Positions 1 to 7,209 of a DNA stretch of 64,000 nucleotides are shown one piece after another; the first letter of the stretch is position 1; the number at the start of each line of letters is the position of its first letter. This DNA is from Halomonas eurihalina (GTDB lineage: Bacteria > Pseudomonadota > Gammaproteobacteria > Pseudomonadales > Halomonadaceae): assembly GCF_008274785.1 (NCBI RefSeq), contig NZ_VTPU01000015.1, forward strand, positions 1 to 64,000. The letters are read 5' to 3'. Both the position numbers and the translations under genes were made by a program. The notes under the pieces were generated by a model. It was not told the origin of the DNA. It worked only from the letters and a program-made list of their open reading frames with translations, and ran no database searches.

Positions 1-77
1 GGATTCACTGCCTGGATCACAGCGCCATCGGCCGATACGGCCTGGGCGCCAATCAATTGCTTGCCTTCGAGTGTCAT
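1..77 (-). CDS. aldehyde dehydrogenase, probably alpha-ketoglutaric semialdehyde dehydrogenase (N-terminal fragment)
   Basis: Only the first 25 codons are in the window; the gene continues past position 1. The start is fixed by a strong AGGAGG four bases before the ATG. The visible N-terminus (MTLEGKQLIGAQAV...) resembles NADP-dependent aldehyde dehydrogenases that oxidise alpha-ketoglutarate semialdehyde, but this is too little to prove the family. It follows the AraD1-like gene by about 14 bases, so it is probably the next gene of the sugar-acid operon. In known aldonate pathways such an enzyme makes alpha-ketoglutarate as the last step. Function is inferred from context plus this short stretch. 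Confidence 0.55.
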   Translation of the reverse strand, partial: MTLEGKQLIGAQAVSADGAVIQAVN

Positions 78-91
78 GGAGCCTCCTGAGA

Positions 92-1084
92 TCACAGGGA
101 ATGAACGGTGGTGTCGGCCTCGTCGGCTTCGAACGCCAGCGGATTGCGCAGCGCCCGGCCAAAGGCCGGCAGGGCAATCTCGAAGCGATCGCCGTCGCGG
201 GTCTGGACGCCGTCGGCGAAGCTCAGCGTCGCAGTGCCGAAGAAGTGCACGTGGACGTCGCCAGGGCGCCGGAAGCCGGGGTACTTGAAGTGATGATGCT
301 CGAGGTTGGCCAAGTTGTGGGCCATGTTGGCCTCGCCAGTGAGAAACGGCTTCTCCCACAGCGTCTCGCCGTCGCGCACGATGCGGCTCGTGCCCTCCAG
401 ATGCTCGGGCAACTCACCGATCAGCAGCTCTGGACCGAAACTGCAGTGACGCAGCTTGGAGTGAGCCAGCCACAAGTAATTGAAACGCTCGGTGATATGG
501 TCGGAGAACTCGTTGCCGATGGCGTAGCCGACCCGCCAGGGCCGGCCGTCGCCGCCGATCACGTAGAGCCCGGCGAGCTCCGGCTCCTCGCCGGCATCCT
601 CGGCGAAGGCCGGTACTGGCATCGGCGCCTCGGGGGCCACCACGCAGTCGCCGTCACCCTTGTAGAACCACTCCGGCTGGGCGCCGGTCTCGCCGGCGGC
701 GGGCTTGCCGCCCTCCACGCCGAGCTTGAACATGCGCATCGAGTCGGTCAGTTCGGACTCGTCAGCCTGGGCCTTGGCGTGCATGGAGGCACGGGTGTCG
801 GCGCTGCCCAGGTGGGTCAGGCCGGTGCCGGTGACCAGGCAGTGGGCCGGGTCGGCATGGGTCAGCGGCGGCAGCAGGCGGCGTTCGTCAATCAGAGCCT
901 GGTAGTCGATCAGCTCATCGTCGAGACGCACCTCGATCACCGCCGACAAAGACTGCCCACTGGCGATGGCCAGCCGTGCCAGGGCGTAGGTGCCGCCGGC
1001 GAGGCGAATCGGCCTCACCGCGTCGTCGCTCTCCACCAGGGCAGCCCGCGGCTGCCCCTCCTCAAGATACTGGATCAGTCGCAT
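92..1084 (-). CDS. AraD1/GguC-like protein, fumarylacetoacetate-hydrolase fold (probable 2-keto-3-deoxy sugar-acid dehydratase)
   Basis: A 330-residue protein of the FAH-fold group usually annotated AraD1 or GguC. Such proteins occur in arabinose, galactarate and lyxonate gene clusters and are thought to dehydrate a 2-keto-3-deoxy acid to alpha-ketoglutarate semialdehyde. The C-terminal part has the HHHFKYPGF and GDVHVHFFGTATLSF segments typical of this group. I chose the ATG at 1084 because GAGG lies six bases upstream; a GTG at 1096 in the same frame overlaps the stop of the dehydratase gene and is the alternative. It sits between the enolase-type dehydratase and an aldehyde dehydrogenase, which fits the middle step of a C5 aldonate pathway. 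Exact substrate not determined. Confidence 0.75.
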   Translation of the reverse strand: MRLIQYLEEGQPRAALVESDDAVRPIRLAGGTYALARLAIASGQSLSAVIEVRLDDELIDYQALIDERRLLPPLTHADPAHCLVTGTGLTHLGSADTRASMHAKAQADESELTDSMRMFKLGVEGGKPAAGETGAQPEWFYKGDGDCVVAPEAPMPVPAFAEDAGEEPELAGLYVIGGDGRPWRVGYAIGNEFSDHITERFNYLWLAHSKLRHCSFGPELLIGELPEHLEGTSRIVRDGETLWEKPFLTGEANMAHNLANLEHHHFKYPGFRRPGDVHVHFFGTATLSFADGVQTRDGDRFEIALPAFGRALRNPLAFEADEADTTVHSL

Positions 1085-1092
1085 GGCCGGCC

Positions 1093-2265
1093 TCACTCGA
1101 TGATATGGAACTGGTCGAAATAGCCTTCATTCAGCGACAGTCCCAGCCCGGGGGTCTCATCATCGAGGTCGAGGAAGCCGTTAGCCGGCTCCGGGTCACC
1201 CTCGAACAGGTAGTAGAAGAGTTCGTTACCGATCTCGACGTCGTGGACCGGGAAGAACTCGGCCATCGGCGAGGCCAGAGTCGACATGGTCAGGTGGTAG
1301 TTGTGCATCTGCCCGGCATGAGGGATGACGGGCACGCTGAACGATTCGGCGATGGCATTGATCTTGCGCGCTGCAGTGATGCCTCCGACGCGGTTGGTGT
1401 CGTACTGCACCACCGAGACGGCGCGCTTCTCGAGCAGCTGGCGGAAGCCGTAGTGGGTGAACTCGTGCTCGCCGCCAGAGATGGGAATACTGGTGAGCCG
1501 GTTGAGCTCGGCATAGCCGTCGATGTCATCGGCCAGCACCGGCTCTTCCAGCCAACGTGGCTGATAGCGCTCCAGGCGCGGCAGCATGCGCTTGGCGTAC
1601 TCCAGATTCCAGCCCATGTAGCACTCGAGCATCAGATCGACGTCCTCGCCGATCACCTCGCGAACTGCGGCGACGCTGTCGAGGTTGGCACGCATGCCCG
1701 CAGGACCGTCCTTGGGGCCGTAGCCGAAGCGCATCTTCATGGCCGTGAAGCCTTGGTCGAGGTAGGACTGAGCCTCCTCCTGCATTGACTTCAGGTCGGT
1801 GCGATAGAGCTTGGAAGCGTAGCAGGGGATCCTCTCCTTGGTACGCCCGCCAAGCAGCTTGAACACCGGCTGGCCGACGGCCTTGCCCATCAGGTCCCAG
1901 ATGGCGATGTCGACACCGGAGATCGCCGCCATGCCGATGCCCTTGCGCCCCCAGGCATGGGTGGCGCGGTACATACGCTGCCACAGGTACTCATAGTCGA
2001 AGGGGTCCTGACCGATCACCAGCGGTGCCAGGTACTGGTCGATGATCGCCTTGGCGATGCGCGGAGCGAGGGCCACATTGCCCAGCCCCACCAGGCCGGT
2101 GTCGGTCTCGATCTCGACCGTAGTCCAGCCGTGGAAGCGGAAAGTGCCCATGGAGTCGCCCCTGTCCCACAGCTCATCCATGGCGTTGGAGCAGAAGTGG
2201 GGAGTGGGGGGCACGGTGTGGCCCTTCCATTCGAAGACGCGGGTACGGACGTTGCTGATCTTCAT
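1093..2265 (-). CDS. enolase-superfamily sugar-acid dehydratase (RhmD/L-lyxonate dehydratase-like)
   Basis: A 390-residue member of the mandelate-racemase branch of the enolase superfamily. It would remove water from an acid sugar to give a 2-keto-3-deoxy acid. Visible catalytic features are a KMR motif near residue 177, likely Mg2+ ligands E214 (LECY), E240/E241 (WLEEP) and E266 (GGEHE), and an Asp–His pair D289 (QYDTNR) and H316 (IPHAG). This D/H arrangement and the GGEH–QYD–PHxG order match L-rhamnonate dehydratase and related enzymes. The pairing with AraD1 and a semialdehyde dehydrogenase suggests a five-carbon acid such as L-lyxonate rather than rhamnonate, but the sequence alone does not settle this. 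The end overlaps the possible GTG start of the next gene. Confidence 0.85.
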
Positions 2266-2294
2266 GTGGGGTGTTTCCTTGTCTGGGGATGTCG

Positions 2295-3326
2295 TCAGGC
2301 GCTAGTGAGGGCCTCGAGGCGCTGGCGTCTCAGGTTCGCGCCCATCCGGCAGGCGATGGTGAAGGCATTGCGGGTCGGGCCCACGTCGGCCTTGCCCTGG
2401 CCGGCGATATCGAAGGCGGTGCCGTGGGCCGGGGTGGTGATGGGAATCGGCAGGCCACCCTGAACGGTGACCCCTTGCTTGAAGCCCAGCAGCTTGATCG
2501 CGATCTGGCCCTGGTCGTGGTACATGGTGACGATGGCGTCGTACTCGCCGTCCTTGGCCTTGAGGAAGATGGTATCGGCGGGGAAGGGACCCTCGACGGG
2601 GTAGCCCTGGGCCCGGCACGCCTCAACGGCGGGCGCGATGACATCGATCTCCTCGCGGCCGCAGGTGCCACCCTCGCCCCCATGCGGGTTGAAGGCTGCC
2701 ACGGCGACCCGTGGTGCCTCGGTGCCGGCCAGCTTCAGCGAGTCGTAGATCAGTCGACTGGCGGCAACGATGCGCTCTTGGGTCACGTAGCTCGCGGCGT
2801 CCTTGAGCGGGATGTGCGACGAGATGCGCGAGGTCCAGAGGTTCCCAAGGGTATTGAACTCGCAGAAGTACCCCGTCACCCCGAGCTTCTCGGCGAAGAA
2901 GTGCAGCTCGTCCTCATGCCGGAGGCCGCCCTTCTTCATCGACAGCTTGTTGAGGGGCGCGAAGCAGATGGCATCGACCTCGCCGGCCTGGGCGGCGTCC
3001 AGGCAACGCGCCAGGACCGCGAGCACGGAGGCGCCACCGGCCGTGGTCTCCTCGGCGTAGCCGACCGCGCCCTCGGCGACGCTGTCGACCGGCAGGAAGA
3101 CCGGGCCGTCATGCCGGCGGGCCTCGGCGAAGTCGGCGACCGCGGGCAGCTCGTGGGACTGGCCGGCCACCCGCTGGCCTTCCTGCCAGAGCCAGCGGTC
3201 ACCCACCAGCACGGTATGGACCTTGGCGAAGAGCGGCGTCTCTGCGAACAGCCTGGCGATCAGCTCCGGGCCGATGCCGGCGGGATCACCCAGGGTGACG
3301 GCGATGACGGGGCGTGAGCTTGTCAT
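2295..3326 (-). CDS. PdxA-family dehydrogenase (PdxA2-like, sugar-acid catabolism)
   Basis: A 343-residue protein with the PdxA fold: N-terminal [12 protein letters not shown], then the three metal-binding histidines in [15 protein letters not shown] and TPAHGTAFD. True PdxA oxidises 4-phosphohydroxy-L-threonine for vitamin B6. The PdxA2 branch instead works with DUF1537 kinases on phosphorylated D-threonate or D-erythronate. Its place inside a TRAP/dehydratase operon points to a catabolic role, not B6 synthesis. No DUF1537 kinase is visible nearby, which makes the substrate unclear. The gene lies 14 bases after dctM and 29 bases before the dehydratase, so all are probably co-transcribed. Confidence 0.8.
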
Positions 3327-3340
3327 GAACGGGCTCCGGT

Positions 3341-4621
3341 TCAGTAGAAGAAGTTGACGAGTGACATGGGGATGGCCGGGACATAGGTAACCAGCATCAG
3401 CACCACGAACAGCACCCCGATCATCGGCAGGTTGACCTTAGTGGTGTCCCAGATGTCGGTCTTGGCGATGGAGCAGGAAGTGGCCAGCACCGAGGCGACC
3501 GGCGGCGTCTGCTGGCCGATGGCCAGGTTGAGGGTCAGGATCAGGCCGAAATGGATCGGGTCGATGCCGATCTGCTGGACCAGCGGCATCACGATGGGCA
3601 CCACCAGGATGATGGCGGCGGCGCCGTGCAGGAACATGCCGAGCAGCAGCAGCAGGGCATTGAGCAGAGCCAGCACCAGGATCGGGTTCTCGGTGATCGC
3701 GGTGATTTCGCTGGCCAGCTGCTGGGGAAGTTGCATCTCGGTCAGGAAAAGCCCGAGGACCGCGGAAGTGGCTACCAGCAGCATCACTACCGAGGTCTGG
3801 ATGACCCCCTCGATCACCGCGCGATAGAGGATCTTGAGGTGCAGTTCGCGGTAGACGAAGCCGCCGATCAGCAGCGCGGCCAGTACGGCGATGCCGGCAC
3901 CCTCGGTGGCGGTGACGAAGCCGCCGAAGATGCCGCCCAGAATGATCACCGGCAGGGTCAGGGCCCAGAAAGCCTCCCTGAATACCTTGCGCAGAGTGGT
4001 CAGCGAGAAGGAGTCTTCACGCGGCAGGTCATACTTCACCGCATAGTAGTAACAGAAGGCGGCCAGGCCGGCGGCACCGATCAGCCCAGGCACGATGCCG
4101 GCGACGAACAGCTTGACGATGGAGGTGTCGGCGATGGCGCCGTAGAGGATCATCGACAGCGACGGCGGAATGATGATCGCCAGCGAGGCCGAAGAGGAGG
4201 TGATGGCGGCGGTGAAGTTCGGGTTGTACTTGCGACGCTTCATCTCCGGGATCAGCACCGAGCCGGTAGCCGCCACGTCGGCGACGGCCGACCCCGAGAT
4301 TTCGGCGAAGAACAGCGAGACCCCGACGTTGACCATCGCCAGGCCGCCGCGCACGAAGCCGACGATGGCGGTGACCAGGTTGATCAGGCGGATGGAAATG
4401 CCCGAGGTGTTCATCAGCGCCCCGGCGAAGATGAACAGGGGAATGGCGATCAGGGGAAACTTGGTGGCCCCGTTGAACAGCGTCAACGGCACGTTGATCA
4501 GGGCCTCGGCCCCCATGTTGAGGTAGGCGCCGACCACGCCCACCACGCCGATGGCCACGGCGATCGGCACGTTGATCAATACCAGGGCGAAGAGAGCGGC
4601 GATGATGATCAGGAGAGTCAT
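3341..4621 (-). CDS. dctM: TRAP transporter large permease (DctM)
   Basis: A 426-residue, very hydrophobic protein with about a dozen membrane segments, the length usual for the DctM subunit of tripartite periplasmic transporters. The start MTLLIIIAALFAL is set by an ATGA overlap with the end of dctQ (4618–4621), so the two are translationally coupled. Typical DctM stretches are visible, such as EISGSAVADVAATGSVLIPEM and IIPPSLSMILYG near the middle and QQTPPVASVLATSC near the end. It would move the substrate delivered by the DctP protein across the inner membrane, driven by a Na+ gradient, which suits a salt-loving host. Confidence 0.93.
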   Translation of the reverse strand: MTLLIIIAALFALVLINVPIAVAIGVVGVVGAYLNMGAEALINVPLTLFNGATKFPLIAIPLFIFAGALMNTSGISIRLINLVTAIVGFVRGGLAMVNVGVSLFFAEISGSAVADVAATGSVLIPEMKRRKYNPNFTAAITSSSASLAIIIPPSLSMILYGAIADTSIVKLFVAGIVPGLIGAAGLAAFCYYYAVKYDLPREDSFSLTTLRKVFREAFWALTLPVIILGGIFGGFVTATEGAGIAVLAALLIGGFVYRELHLKILYRAVIEGVIQTSVVMLLVATSAVLGLFLTEMQLPQQLASEITAITENPILVLALLNALLLLLGMFLHGAAAIILVVPIVMPLVQQIGIDPIHFGLILTLNLAIGQQTPPVASVLATSCSIAKTDIWDTTKVNLPMIGVLFVVLMLVTYVPAIPMSLVNFFY

Positions 4622-5172
4622 GCGCGTTGCTCCTTGAGGTCGTCTTCGGCTTGCCGGATGGCGGCCTCGATCTCTTCTTCCTCGCTGTTCACGCCGCTGC
4701 GCATCTTGCGCCAGGCCATGGGCATGCTGAGCAGCTCGCAGAGGATGAACAGCACGGCGCTGATCGGGATCACCGACTGGGTAACGTCCAGCCCAATGCT
4801 CGGCAGCGTGACCAGGTTGTCCCAGGCGAGGATGTCGAGGACGCGATAGCCGTAGTAGGCGATGACCAGGAAGAAACCGATCACGATGACTTCCGAGAGG
4901 ATGAACAGGGTGGCGCGAAGGGCGGCCGGCGCACGGCTGACCAGGCCGGGAAAGCCCATGTGGGACCGCTTGAGGGCCGCCAGGTTCGCCCCGTAGAAGC
5001 TCAGCCATGCCAGGCCGATGGAAGCGACCTCGTCGTACCAGGAGAAGGAGTTGCCCACCATGCGAAAGCCCACCGCGGCGATGACGATGGCGGTCAACGC
5101 TAGCAGGAGGAAGACGGTCAGCACCTCCAGCAGTCGTTCCAGCAGTAGATTGACACGAGCCAGTGAGCTCAT
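4618..5172 (-). CDS. dctQ: TRAP transporter small permease (DctQ)
   Basis: A 184-residue protein with four predicted membrane helices and a charged, Glu-rich C-terminal tail (SEEEEIEAAIRQAEDD), as in DctQ subunits. The frame is open 63 bases further upstream, but I prefer the start at 5172 (MSSLARVNLL) because AGGAGG lies seven bases before it. DctQ pairs with DctM to form the membrane part of the TRAP system. It lies between the binding protein and DctM in the usual P–Q–M order. Confidence 0.9.
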   Translation of the reverse strand: MSSLARVNLLLERLLEVLTVFLLLALTAIVIAAVGFRMVGNSFSWYDEVASIGLAWLSFYGANLAALKRSHMGFPGLVSRAPAALRATLFILSEVIVIGFFLVIAYYGYRVLDILAWDNLVTLPSIGLDVTQSVIPISAVLFILCELLSMPMAWRKMRSGVNSEEEEIEAAIRQAEDDLKEQRA

Positions 5173-5241
5173 GACGTGGACCTCCTGCGATTTCGTGGGG
5201 AAAGGCGCCTCGACGGCGCCCGGGGTGGATGACATCTTGCG

Positions 5242-6216
5242 TTACTCCTCTGCCAGTGCCATGGCACGGTCGACGAGTTCCTGGCCGCCTTCCACCTGTT
5301 CGGCGAATTCGGTATAGACAGGGTTGCTGGCCTCGACGAAGGCATCGCGGTCCACTCGATTGATCTCCATGCCCTCTCCGCGCATGGCCTCAAGGAGCGA
5401 GTCGTCGAGTTCCGCGCCCTTGGTCAGAGCCCAGTCCTGAGTCTCCGCGGCGACCTCGGCGATGGCGGTACGCACGTCCTCAGGCAGTTTCGCCCAGCCG
5501 CCCTTGCCGGCGGTCAGCCAGATCGGTGAATAGACGTGGTTGGAGAGCGAGAGGTAGCCCTGCACCTCCTGTAACTTAGCGCCGTTGATGTTGCTGAGCG
5601 GGTTCTCCTGCCCATCGACCACGCCGGTCTGCAGGCCGACGAAGACCTCGGAGAAGGCCATGGGCGTCGGATTGGCGCCCCAGGTCTCGAACATCAGGGT
5701 GCGCCACTCGCTCTGCGGGGTGCGGATCTTCAGGCCCTCTAGGTCGGCCGGTGTGTCGATCGGCCTTTCGTTATTGGTGATGTGGCGAAAGCCGTTCTCC
5801 CAGGTGGAAACGATGTTCAGCCCCTTCTCTTCGGCGCTCCGGGCCAGATCCTGCATCACGATCTCGCGATCGATGCGCTTCAGGTGGTCGCGGTCCTTGA
5901 CCAGGAAGGGCATATCGAACAAGGCGAAGTCGGGGGACACGGAGGACATAATCGAGGAGATGGCGGCGAGGTCCACGGTGCCCGCCCGCAGCTTCTGGAT
6001 GAGCTGGCGTTCGTCACCCAACTGACCACTGTGGTAGTACTCCACCTGGTGGGCGTCGCCGAGGCGCTCCTGGAGTCGATCGCTGAACTCCTGGGCGGTT
6101 TGCCCCTGCAGGCTGTTGGGGGTGCCGCCGATGGCGAAGACGATCTTGTCGGCCTGTACCTGGGCCGAGGCAACCGCGAGACCGAGCGCTGAAAGACCGA
6201 GTAGCTTCTTGTACAT
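5242..6216 (-). CDS. dctP: TRAP transporter substrate-binding protein (DctP)
   Basis: A 324-residue periplasmic binding protein with a clear signal peptide (MYKKLLGLSALGLAVASAQVQA, cleavage likely before DKIVF). The start at 6216 has AGGAG five bases upstream; a longer frame upstream lacks a site. Family features are the FSDRLQERLGD segment, the LRAGTVDLAAIS segment, and the substrate-carboxylate arginine region IRTPQSEWRTLMFETWGANPTPMAFSEVFVGLQTGVVDGQ at its usual place (key residues R and the PTPM–EVF–VDGQ blocks). It captures the acid substrate for DctQM. It is the first gene of the leftward operon and faces the GntR regulator. Confidence 0.92.
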   Translation of the reverse strand: MYKKLLGLSALGLAVASAQVQADKIVFAIGGTPNSLQGQTAQEFSDRLQERLGDAHQVEYYHSGQLGDERQLIQKLRAGTVDLAAISSIMSSVSPDFALFDMPFLVKDRDHLKRIDREIVMQDLARSAEEKGLNIVSTWENGFRHITNNERPIDTPADLEGLKIRTPQSEWRTLMFETWGANPTPMAFSEVFVGLQTGVVDGQENPLSNINGAKLQEVQGYLSLSNHVYSPIWLTAGKGGWAKLPEDVRTAIAEVAAETQDWALTKGAELDDSLLEAMRGEGMEINRVDRDAFVEASNPVYTEFAEQVEGGQELVDRAMALAEE

Positions 6217-6272
6217 GACGACTCCTGTGAGCTTGCGGTTTGTCATTGGCGTTGTTCGGGCCAACTGGTTTG

Positions 6273-6301
6273 CTGGTATGATCACCAGACCAGATGGTGA
6301 T
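6273..6301. promoter_or_regulatory. probable GntR operator at the catabolic operon promoter
   Basis: Two overlapping inverted repeats are seen: CTGGT–6 bp–ACCAG (6273–6288) and ATCACCA–7 bp–TGGTGAT (6281–6301). They lie just downstream of a plausible leftward promoter (−35 TTGACC at 6329–6334, 17-bp spacer, −10 TAAGTT at 6306–6311 on the minus strand). A repressor here would block dctP transcription. The TGGT/ACCA half-sites resemble those of FadR-family sugar-acid regulators (UxuR/ExuR type). Confidence 0.6.
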
Positions 6302-6421
6302 ATTGAACTTAGACACCGAGTTGTGTCCGGTCAAGCATGCATAGCGCATACTTTGACCAAAGTCGCAGACTGGGTATACGACCAAGGCAGGACAATCACA
6401 TCGCGTCAACATCACCAAAAT

Positions 6422-6440
6422 TGGTATATAATCCATACCA
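6422..6440. promoter_or_regulatory. probable GntR autoregulatory operator
   Basis: TGGTAT (6422–6427), 7-bp spacer, ATACCA (6435–6440) is a perfect 6+6 inverted repeat. It overlaps a TATAAT (6427–6432) about 37 bases before the regulator start. It shares the TGGT...ACCA core with the site at 6273–6301, so one protein probably binds both. An alternative rightward promoter is TTGACC (6353–6358) with TATACG (6375–6380), which lies upstream of the operator. Confidence 0.6.
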
Positions 6441-6468
6441 GTTGCATATTACCGACGAGGATGGACCC

Positions 6469-7209
6469 ATGACGCTGCGGGCCTTTGCCGACGAACAGGC
6501 GCTGAAGAGCCGAACCAAGAAGGAAATCCTGGCCGACAAGCTGACCGATATGGTCTTGACGGGATTGCTGAGGGATGGGGACGAACTGCCCAGCGAGCGG
6601 GAACTGGCCCAACTTTTCGGGGTAAGTCGAGAAACCGTGAGGGGAGCCCTGGCACAGCTCACGGCGCATGGGCTGGCCAGCGTCTCGCATGGCAGCAAGT
6701 CACGGATCTGCGCCAACGACACGGTGATCGAACGCTTCCACCACCACCCCAGCCACCATCAGGAGGCCGAGGTCAATCGATTCGACGTGGACAGCGTCTT
6801 CGAGAGCCGCTTAGTGGTCGAGTCGGCGATCGCCCGGCGCGCCGCCCGCTATATCGACGAGCCCGGCCTGCTACAGCTGGAGCGGCTACTGGAGGCCCAG
6901 AGCCAGCTCTTCGACTCGCCGGTGCATTTCCAGCTATCGGATCAGAACTTCCACAAGTTGATCTCGGAATATGCCCGTAACGAAATACTCCTGCGCTACT
7001 CTCAGGAGCTCTATGCCTTCGGGCTAAGCATTCGGCGTCAGGTAATGGTAGAAGCCGGCTCCATCGAGCAAAGCTACCAGGAGCACTGTCGGATCGTCGA
7101 AGCCTTGAGTGCTGGCGATCCGGATGCCGCGGAGCGTGCCATGCTGGCCCACCTGGACAGTGTCTATCGCACGACTCGCGAGAAACTGGACGCCACCACC
7201 TCCAGCTGA
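6469..7209 (+). CDS. GntR-family regulator, FadR/FCD subfamily
   Basis: A 246-residue regulator. Residues about 15–75 form the winged helix-turn-helix (ELPSERELAQLFGVSRETVRGALAQL). The rest is a helical FCD ligand domain with likely metal/ligand histidines in DQNFHKLI and EHCRIV and near the C-terminus (MLAHLDSV). The ATG at 6469 has GAGG eight bases upstream; the frame is open further upstream but without a site. It is divergent from the TRAP operon and, by analogy with the family, should repress it until the sugar acid or an intermediate binds. Confidence 0.88.
   Translation: MTLRAFADEQALKSRTKKEILADKLTDMVLTGLLRDGDELPSERELAQLFGVSRETVRGALAQLTAHGLASVSHGSKSRICANDTVIERFHHHPSHHQEAEVNRFDVDSVFESRLVVESAIARRAARYIDEPGLLQLERLLEAQSQLFDSPVHFQLSDQNFHKLISEYARNEILLRYSQELYAFGLSIRRQVMVEAGSIEQSYQEHCRIVEALSAGDPDAAERAMLAHLDSVYRTTREKLDATTSS

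Follow-up and report, generated by a model that had tools for sequence, protein, structure and literature searches.

What does a PdxA-like enzyme do in a sugar-acid operon that encodes no kinase? The question is raised by the first 7,209 nucleotides of the window (the whole 64,000-nucleotide stretch of Halomonas eurihalina contig NZ_VTPU01000015.1 analysed here), where genes for a tripartite ATP-independent periplasmic (TRAP) transporter, a PdxA-like protein, an enolase-type dehydratase, an AraD1 family protein and the start of an aldehyde dehydrogenase follow one another. We consider it likely that this operon takes up 2-carboxy-L-lyxonate and breaks it down; this branched C6 dicarboxylic acid arises by rearrangement of the vitamin C product 2,3-diketogulonate. 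The PdxA-like enzyme is best read as a decarboxylase making L-lyxonate and would therefore need no kinase, which removes the apparent gap in the operon. The gene order on the minus strand is dctP, dctQ, dctM, pdxA-like, lyxD, araD1 and the aldehyde dehydrogenase start, with a GntR/FCD gene divergent from them:

1–77, minus strand: start of an aldehyde dehydrogenase gene, its product predicted to be alpha-ketoglutarate semialdehyde dehydrogenase; the contig end cuts the gene after 25 codons; translation resembles the start of the dehydrogenase on contig C10.
92–1096, minus strand: AraD1 family protein, predicted 2-keto-3-deoxy-L-lyxonate dehydratase; NF040903 at 538 bits, cut-off 340; start perhaps at 1084.
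1093–2265, minus strand: putative L-lyxonate dehydratase LyxD, enolase superfamily; PDB 3ssz, 3sqs and 3stp at 626–630 bits over nearly the full length; PF13378 and PF02746; KMR at 177–179, His316.
2295–3326, minus strand: PdxA-like protein, predicted 2-carboxy-L-lyxonate decarboxylase; PF04166, E 6.8e-86; altered substrate residues, metal His kept; linkage to LyxD.
3341–4621, minus strand: TRAP large permease DctM; PF06808, E 4.8e-110; TIGR00786 above cut-off.
4618–5235, minus strand: TRAP small permease DctQ; PF04290, E 2.8e-16.
5242–6216, minus strand: TRAP solute-binding protein DctP; PF03480, E 2e-90; TIGR00787 above cut-off.
6337–7209, plus strand: GntR/FCD regulator; PF07729 and PF00392; true start probably near 6469.

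The operon genes named in the initial annotation are all present, as judged by Pfam and NCBIfam matches; dctM is too long in the open reading frame list and likely starts near 4621. In the pathway we propose, the TRAP transporter would import 2-carboxy-L-lyxonate. The PdxA-like enzyme, with nicotinamide adenine dinucleotide (NAD+) bound, would oxidise the C3 hydroxyl, one carboxyl would be lost as CO2, and the NADH formed would reduce the product again to L-lyxonate, NAD+ thus acting catalytically. The decarboxylase role is taken from a reported L-ascorbate pathway and is supported here by family, residues and linkage. LyxD, by its sequence match, would dehydrate L-lyxonate to 2-keto-3-deoxy-L-lyxonate, which the AraD1 protein, by its family, would dehydrate to alpha-ketoglutarate semialdehyde. 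The aldehyde dehydrogenase, of which the window holds only the gene start, would complete the route to alpha-ketoglutarate, as its family and context suggest. The GntR protein, relatives of which are found next to other PdxA-like/LyxD loci, probably controls the operon.

Seven NCBIfam models match the PdxA-like protein, each below its cut-off, and the PdxA equivalog TIGR00557 (4-hydroxythreonine-4-phosphate dehydrogenase) is not reached (261.8 bits versus 290.35). We compared it across 111 loci, made up of 31 stretches from relatives and an 80-locus set (the best 80 of 583). The 80 were selected with M[YF]HDQGQ and PAHGTA[FY]D as search patterns, so residues inside these two patterns are not independent evidence. 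Two pairs of loci, L064/L088 and L067/L089, are apparently from the same genomes, and three proteins could be read only partly across a broken frame. Throughout the 107 subfamily loci the His of the GHT motif is replaced by Glu, an Asn by Thr, and an Arg by Ile (84 loci), Val (22) or Phe (1), and three His, one Asp and one Lys are retained; the remaining four of the 111 loci keep the His-Thr, the Asn and the Arg. The window protein carries Glu140, Leu141, Thr287 and Ile296 at the GHT, Asn and Arg positions, which we take to bind the phosphorylated substrate in E. coli PdxA, and it retains His171, His215 and His270, presumably metal ligands, as well as Lys278. GHT is present in all five solved relatives shown, and also in the only other PdxA of the genome (C57:126974), which is taken as the housekeeping enzyme. 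In a tree, the rows with GHT group apart from all others, together with the housekeeping PdxA (support 100/99), and by sequence we assign the window protein to a separate PdxA subfamily. GHT versus DE at the same place is thus a simple residue test for telling the kinase-dependent PdxA2 from the kinase-free PdxA subfamily, annotated plasmid copies of which carry a vitamin B6 enzyme label.

The nearest solved kin of the PdxA-like protein include the PdxA2 proteins 2hi1 and 6e85, and one could suppose that its substrate is D-threonate or D-erythronate 4-phosphate, supplied by a DUF1537 kinase encoded elsewhere, the operon then serving two substrates. We regard this as exceedingly improbable, and it is already contradicted by the replaced GHT, Asn and Arg and by the genome: a profile search for PF07005 (DUF1537) in the 99.99% complete genome gave no matches at E 0.001, the same search as a positive control giving matches in three of 14 control genomes. 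The remark in the initial annotation that no kinase is visible thus holds for genome and window alike, and a DUF1537 kinase just outside the window, which it had named as a counter-finding, was looked for genome-wide and not found. Such a neighbour is ruled out by the contig neighbours as well. Moreover, the protein reaches 203 bits versus a cut-off of 583 with the D-threonate 4-phosphate dehydrogenase model, and a DUF1537 profile finds a match in four of the four stretches with a GHT-type PdxA versus none of the 107 with the other type. That profile rests on 20 sequences, all from the bacterial family to which the window belongs, and its matches to the four reach only 27–34 bits, so very divergent kinases could escape it, and 22 of the 111 stretches are shorter than 15 kb. 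A fifth PdxA in the GHT range (G115:C45), outside the 111-locus set, is adjoined by a DUF1537 gene, as judged by coordinates. Of the two explanations that the initial annotation had offered, a non-phosphorylated substrate is supported by the residue replacements together with the absence of DUF1537, and a second substrate is not needed.

Linkage ties the PdxA-like gene to the next step. In the 80-locus set it lies within 1.5 kb of LyxD in 51 loci, 41 of them at 200 bases or less, and LyxD is inside the examined stretch in 61 (of the 80 stretches, 20 are under 15 kb). Among plasmids, the top PdxA-like and LyxD matches adjoin in Sphingomonas, Burkholderia, Paraburkholderia, Variovorax, Polaromonas and Cupriavidus records. 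Across 121 genomes of the bacterial family, LyxD occurs in 28 (E 1e-100), the PdxA-like gene in 41 (E 1e-60; 43 matched, and G058 and G096 were dropped, their only match being GHT-type) and both in 22, giving a Fisher value for co-occurrence of 3e-8, a figure that kinship makes only a guide. The two genes are at most 200 bases apart in 14 of these 22 genomes; six LyxD genomes have no PdxA-like gene at E 1e-60. Genes adjoining these loci encode, among others, Amidohydro_2, propeller, SMP-30 and DHDPS proteins (labels assigned in this analysis, with representatives checked), and 36 of the 61 LyxD-bearing loci also have an amidohydrolase, propeller or SMP-30 lactonase relative. The propeller from L085 matches nothing in Pfam at 1e-5 and its solved kin is only an S-layer propeller; its cluster mate from L103 reaches PF21783 exactly at the cut-off. 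These neighbour families match the reported ascorbate pathway, in which a PdxA-family decarboxylase makes L-lyxonate. Given that pathway and the proximity to LyxD, the earlier view that the PdxA-like enzyme does not fit a C5 route is not supported.

LyxD, AraD1 and the dehydrogenase would suffice for an operon devoted to L-lyxonate alone, with the PdxA-like enzyme doing something secondary, for instance the conversion of other C5 acids. This we think improbable: the PdxA-like gene is retained beside LyxD across genera, it stays together with the TRAP genes without LyxD in G036, and it adjoins TctC/TctB/TctA without LyxD in six loci (L072–L077). The six are minimal loci, each with a regulator, a PdxA-like gene (product 44–48% identical) and the Tct genes, no LyxD being in view; L185 has the same minimal set (regulator and PdxA-like gene, again 44–48%) with TRAP as the transporter and likewise no LyxD in view.

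For degradation of 2-carboxy-L-lyxonate, the steps after decarboxylation are those of the C5 aldonate route to alpha-ketoglutarate proposed in the initial annotation, which is supported. The enolase-type dehydratase fits an L-lyxonate dehydratase by sequence: its KxR motif includes Arg179, and this residue and His316 are the positions that we take to be essential in that enzyme. The structures that it matches are presumably LyxD-group enzymes too, though the entries are titled otherwise. The AraD1 protein scores above the cut-off of the 2-keto-3-deoxypentonate dehydratase model and has no PDB relative at E 0.001 and no Pfam match. Of the predicted semialdehyde dehydrogenase, the window holds the gene start. 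Its full-length relative on contig C10 is an aldehyde dehydrogenase (PF00171) above no NCBIfam cut-off, scoring 92 versus 770 with NF042993, the alpha-ketoglutarate semialdehyde dehydrogenase equivalog; because of this score and the 25 codons in the window, alpha-ketoglutarate semialdehyde as the substrate rests on context. Nor is the gene constant: none follows AraD1 in the examined stretch of G074 or G071. On C10 (L012:1545–6601), a second AraD1 gene (82% DNA identity) and the aldehyde dehydrogenase adjoin a glycosyl hydrolase family 43 gene and, by eye, a permease-like gene; that locus is probably an L-arabinose route.

The loss of the dehydrogenase gene is a matter of assembly. The first letter of the window is base 1 of contig C6 and lies inside the gene, and bases 1–77 are identical to the end of contig C57 of the same genome, so we conclude that the assembly broke in a repeated dehydrogenase gene. 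At the C57 end a different operon, with a galactarate dehydratase (above its NCBIfam cut-off) and a glucarate-dehydratase-like protein (685 bits versus a cut-off of 829), runs into the same sequence, and contigs C3 and C23 open with dehydrogenase 3′ ends (C3:3–71 and C23:3–71). Two nearly identical aldehyde dehydrogenase genes seemingly collapsed, breaking four contigs (C6, C57, C3 and C23). After the dehydrogenase end, C3 carries a CvfB-like protein and then glutathione synthase; in the window, rsmE is found on the far side of the regulator. Since relative G060 has, in order, rsmE, the operon, dehydrogenase pieces and gshB, the order here is probably C6, dehydrogenase, C3, with the joining gene missing from the assembly.

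The distribution of the transporter suggests which acid enters. DctP relatives of at least 64% occur in 13 of the 121 family genomes, all 13 of which have the PdxA-like gene and 12 LyxD, and in seven the DctP relative and the PdxA-like gene stand together. In G036 the TRAP genes directly adjoin the PdxA-like gene. Locus L085 has two TRAP sets, the first before the PdxA-like gene and the second with an amidohydrolase and a propeller, and the window DctP resembles that of the first (72%; others 29–36%). On the strength of this co-occurrence and of the arrangements in G036 and L085, the window transporter would bring in the substrate of the PdxA-like enzyme, 2-carboxy-L-lyxonate. The propeller, the rearrangement enzyme, has no match in the window's own genome (11 genomes searched: 81% relatives in four, partial ones of 27–36% in three more), and for this reason the operon probably starts from the imported acid.

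Import of an earlier vitamin C product, either 2,3-diketogulonate or a 2-carboxy-lactone, would leave the role of the PdxA-like enzyme the same, with the missing steps non-enzymatic or catalysed by unrelated enzymes. The genome does encode a distant amidohydrolase and an SMP-30 homologue, each at only 33%. The review PMC11066805 describes a non-oxidative rearrangement of diketogulonate to 2-carboxy-L-pentonate and its two lactones, an interconvertible set that slowly sheds a carboxyl to give L-lyxonate and L-xylonate, a chemistry that equally favours 2-carboxy-L-lyxonate itself as the imported acid; 2-carboxy-L-lyxonate is also mentioned in PMC6225978. The absence of a propeller match, versus the 81% relatives elsewhere, and the likeness of the window DctP to the L085 set that lacks the amidohydrolase and propeller nonetheless make such an import unlikely.

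Several observations weigh against import and decarboxylation of 2-carboxy-L-lyxonate. The operon has no lactonase or rearrangement enzyme, and in G030 a close amidohydrolase is present without a propeller match. Of the 22 genomes with both LyxD and the PdxA-like gene, eight, all of one genus, have the two apart, and in six genomes, all belonging to genus g7, 13–26 kb separate the DctP relative from the PdxA-like gene. Solved structures that best match DctP include 4pdh, 4pdd and 4p9k, which we take to be D-erythronate complexes. The dehydrogenase follows AraD1 in L056, L086 and L087 but is absent from the examined stretches of L054, L055 and L057. DUF1537 is found somewhere in 31 of the 33 genomes searched, the window's own genome and G022 being the two without, and in G014, G106 and G064 it shares a contig with the PdxA-like gene at a distance of about 11–20 kb (beyond the tested stretches). 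L186, L187 and L189 have a DUF1537 gene about 4–5 kb from LyxD, as do, by coordinates, G055, G066 and G077. Other dehydratases accompany a sister clade of the PdxA-like protein (L-fuconate-dehydratase-like in six loci, GarD/UxaA-type in one, neither in two). Finally, the ascorbate-pathway enzymes are taken as reported, and the decarboxylase role is a prediction from family, residues and linkage.

One of these observations also has a favourable side. In L186 the LyxD neighbours score above the cut-offs for L-threonate dehydrogenase, 3-oxo-tetronate 4-phosphate decarboxylase and 2-oxo-tetronate isomerase, which indicates an L-threonate route near LyxD. LyxD of relatives thus adjoins a cluster for L-threonate, another vitamin C breakdown acid, which supports 2-carboxy-L-lyxonate as the substrate. 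L186, L187 and L189 are relatives of two other genera.

The sister clade, from the same bacterial family, comprises nine rows with support 100/99 (L061, L063, L065, L066, L068, L069, L088, L089 and L090). Its six fuconate-dehydratase-like proteins are 78–82% identical to that of L081 (PDB 2hne, E 3e-162), and all nine loci have a beta-hydroxyacid dehydrogenase (three tested, none above an NCBIfam cut-off). According to PMC6336799, both dehydratase types have members that accept D-arabinonate, so the clade may begin a route, as yet undescribed, that leads from 2-carboxy-D-pentonate to D-arabinonate, e.g., in erythorbate or 2-carboxy-D-arabinitol breakdown. We tentatively conjecture, as a possibility short of an even chance, that the kinase-free PdxA-like proteins are a 2-carboxy-aldonate decarboxylase family for more than one branched acid, and that the window operon works on its own to salvage 2-carboxy-L-lyxonate that arises non-enzymatically in the environment. 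The operon suggests that the acids from vitamin C breakdown may sustain some bacteria that lack the known enzymes for degrading vitamin C itself.

Three known systems bear comparison with the window operon. The PdxA2 and DUF1537 kinase of the D-threonate/D-erythronate pathway, which Zhang et al. are said to have described in 2016, share the PdxA family and metal site with the window, whereas the window lacks the kinase and has GHT, Asn and Arg replaced. The L-lyxonate pathway of Pseudomonas aeruginosa PAO1, reportedly worked out by Ghasempur et al. in 2014, has LyxD, the 2-keto-3-deoxy acid dehydratase and the semialdehyde dehydrogenase in common with it. Pseudomonas loci such as L136 and L158 have amidohydrolase, PdxA-like, LyxD, AraD1 and dehydrogenase genes in a row; compared with these, the window has TRAP instead of major facilitator superfamily (MFS) or Tct transporters and GntR instead of LysR. 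In the L-ascorbate pathway of Cupriavidus necator H16, reportedly from Stack et al. in 2020 (J Am Chem Soc 142:1657), a gluconolactonase and then a WD40-like protein are said to give 2-carboxy-L-lyxonolactone, an amidohydrolase 2-carboxy-L-lyxonate, and a PdxA-family decarboxylase with catalytic NAD+ L-lyxonate, which proceeds to alpha-ketoglutarate. The PdxA-like protein is 56% identical to a homologue in C. necator A5-1 (L145). Among the literature matches listed, subscription papers being mostly out of reach, we found no work on a TRAP-led 2-carboxy-lyxonate operon. The H16 pathway, as reported, and the window, as predicted, share a PdxA-family decarboxylase followed by the L-lyxonate route to alpha-ketoglutarate, but the window operon comes with a TRAP transporter of its own, and genes for a lactonase, propeller or amidohydrolase are absent from it. 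It is probably the known pathway in a shortened, transporter-led form, modestly new in its probable start from an imported acid without a rearrangement enzyme.

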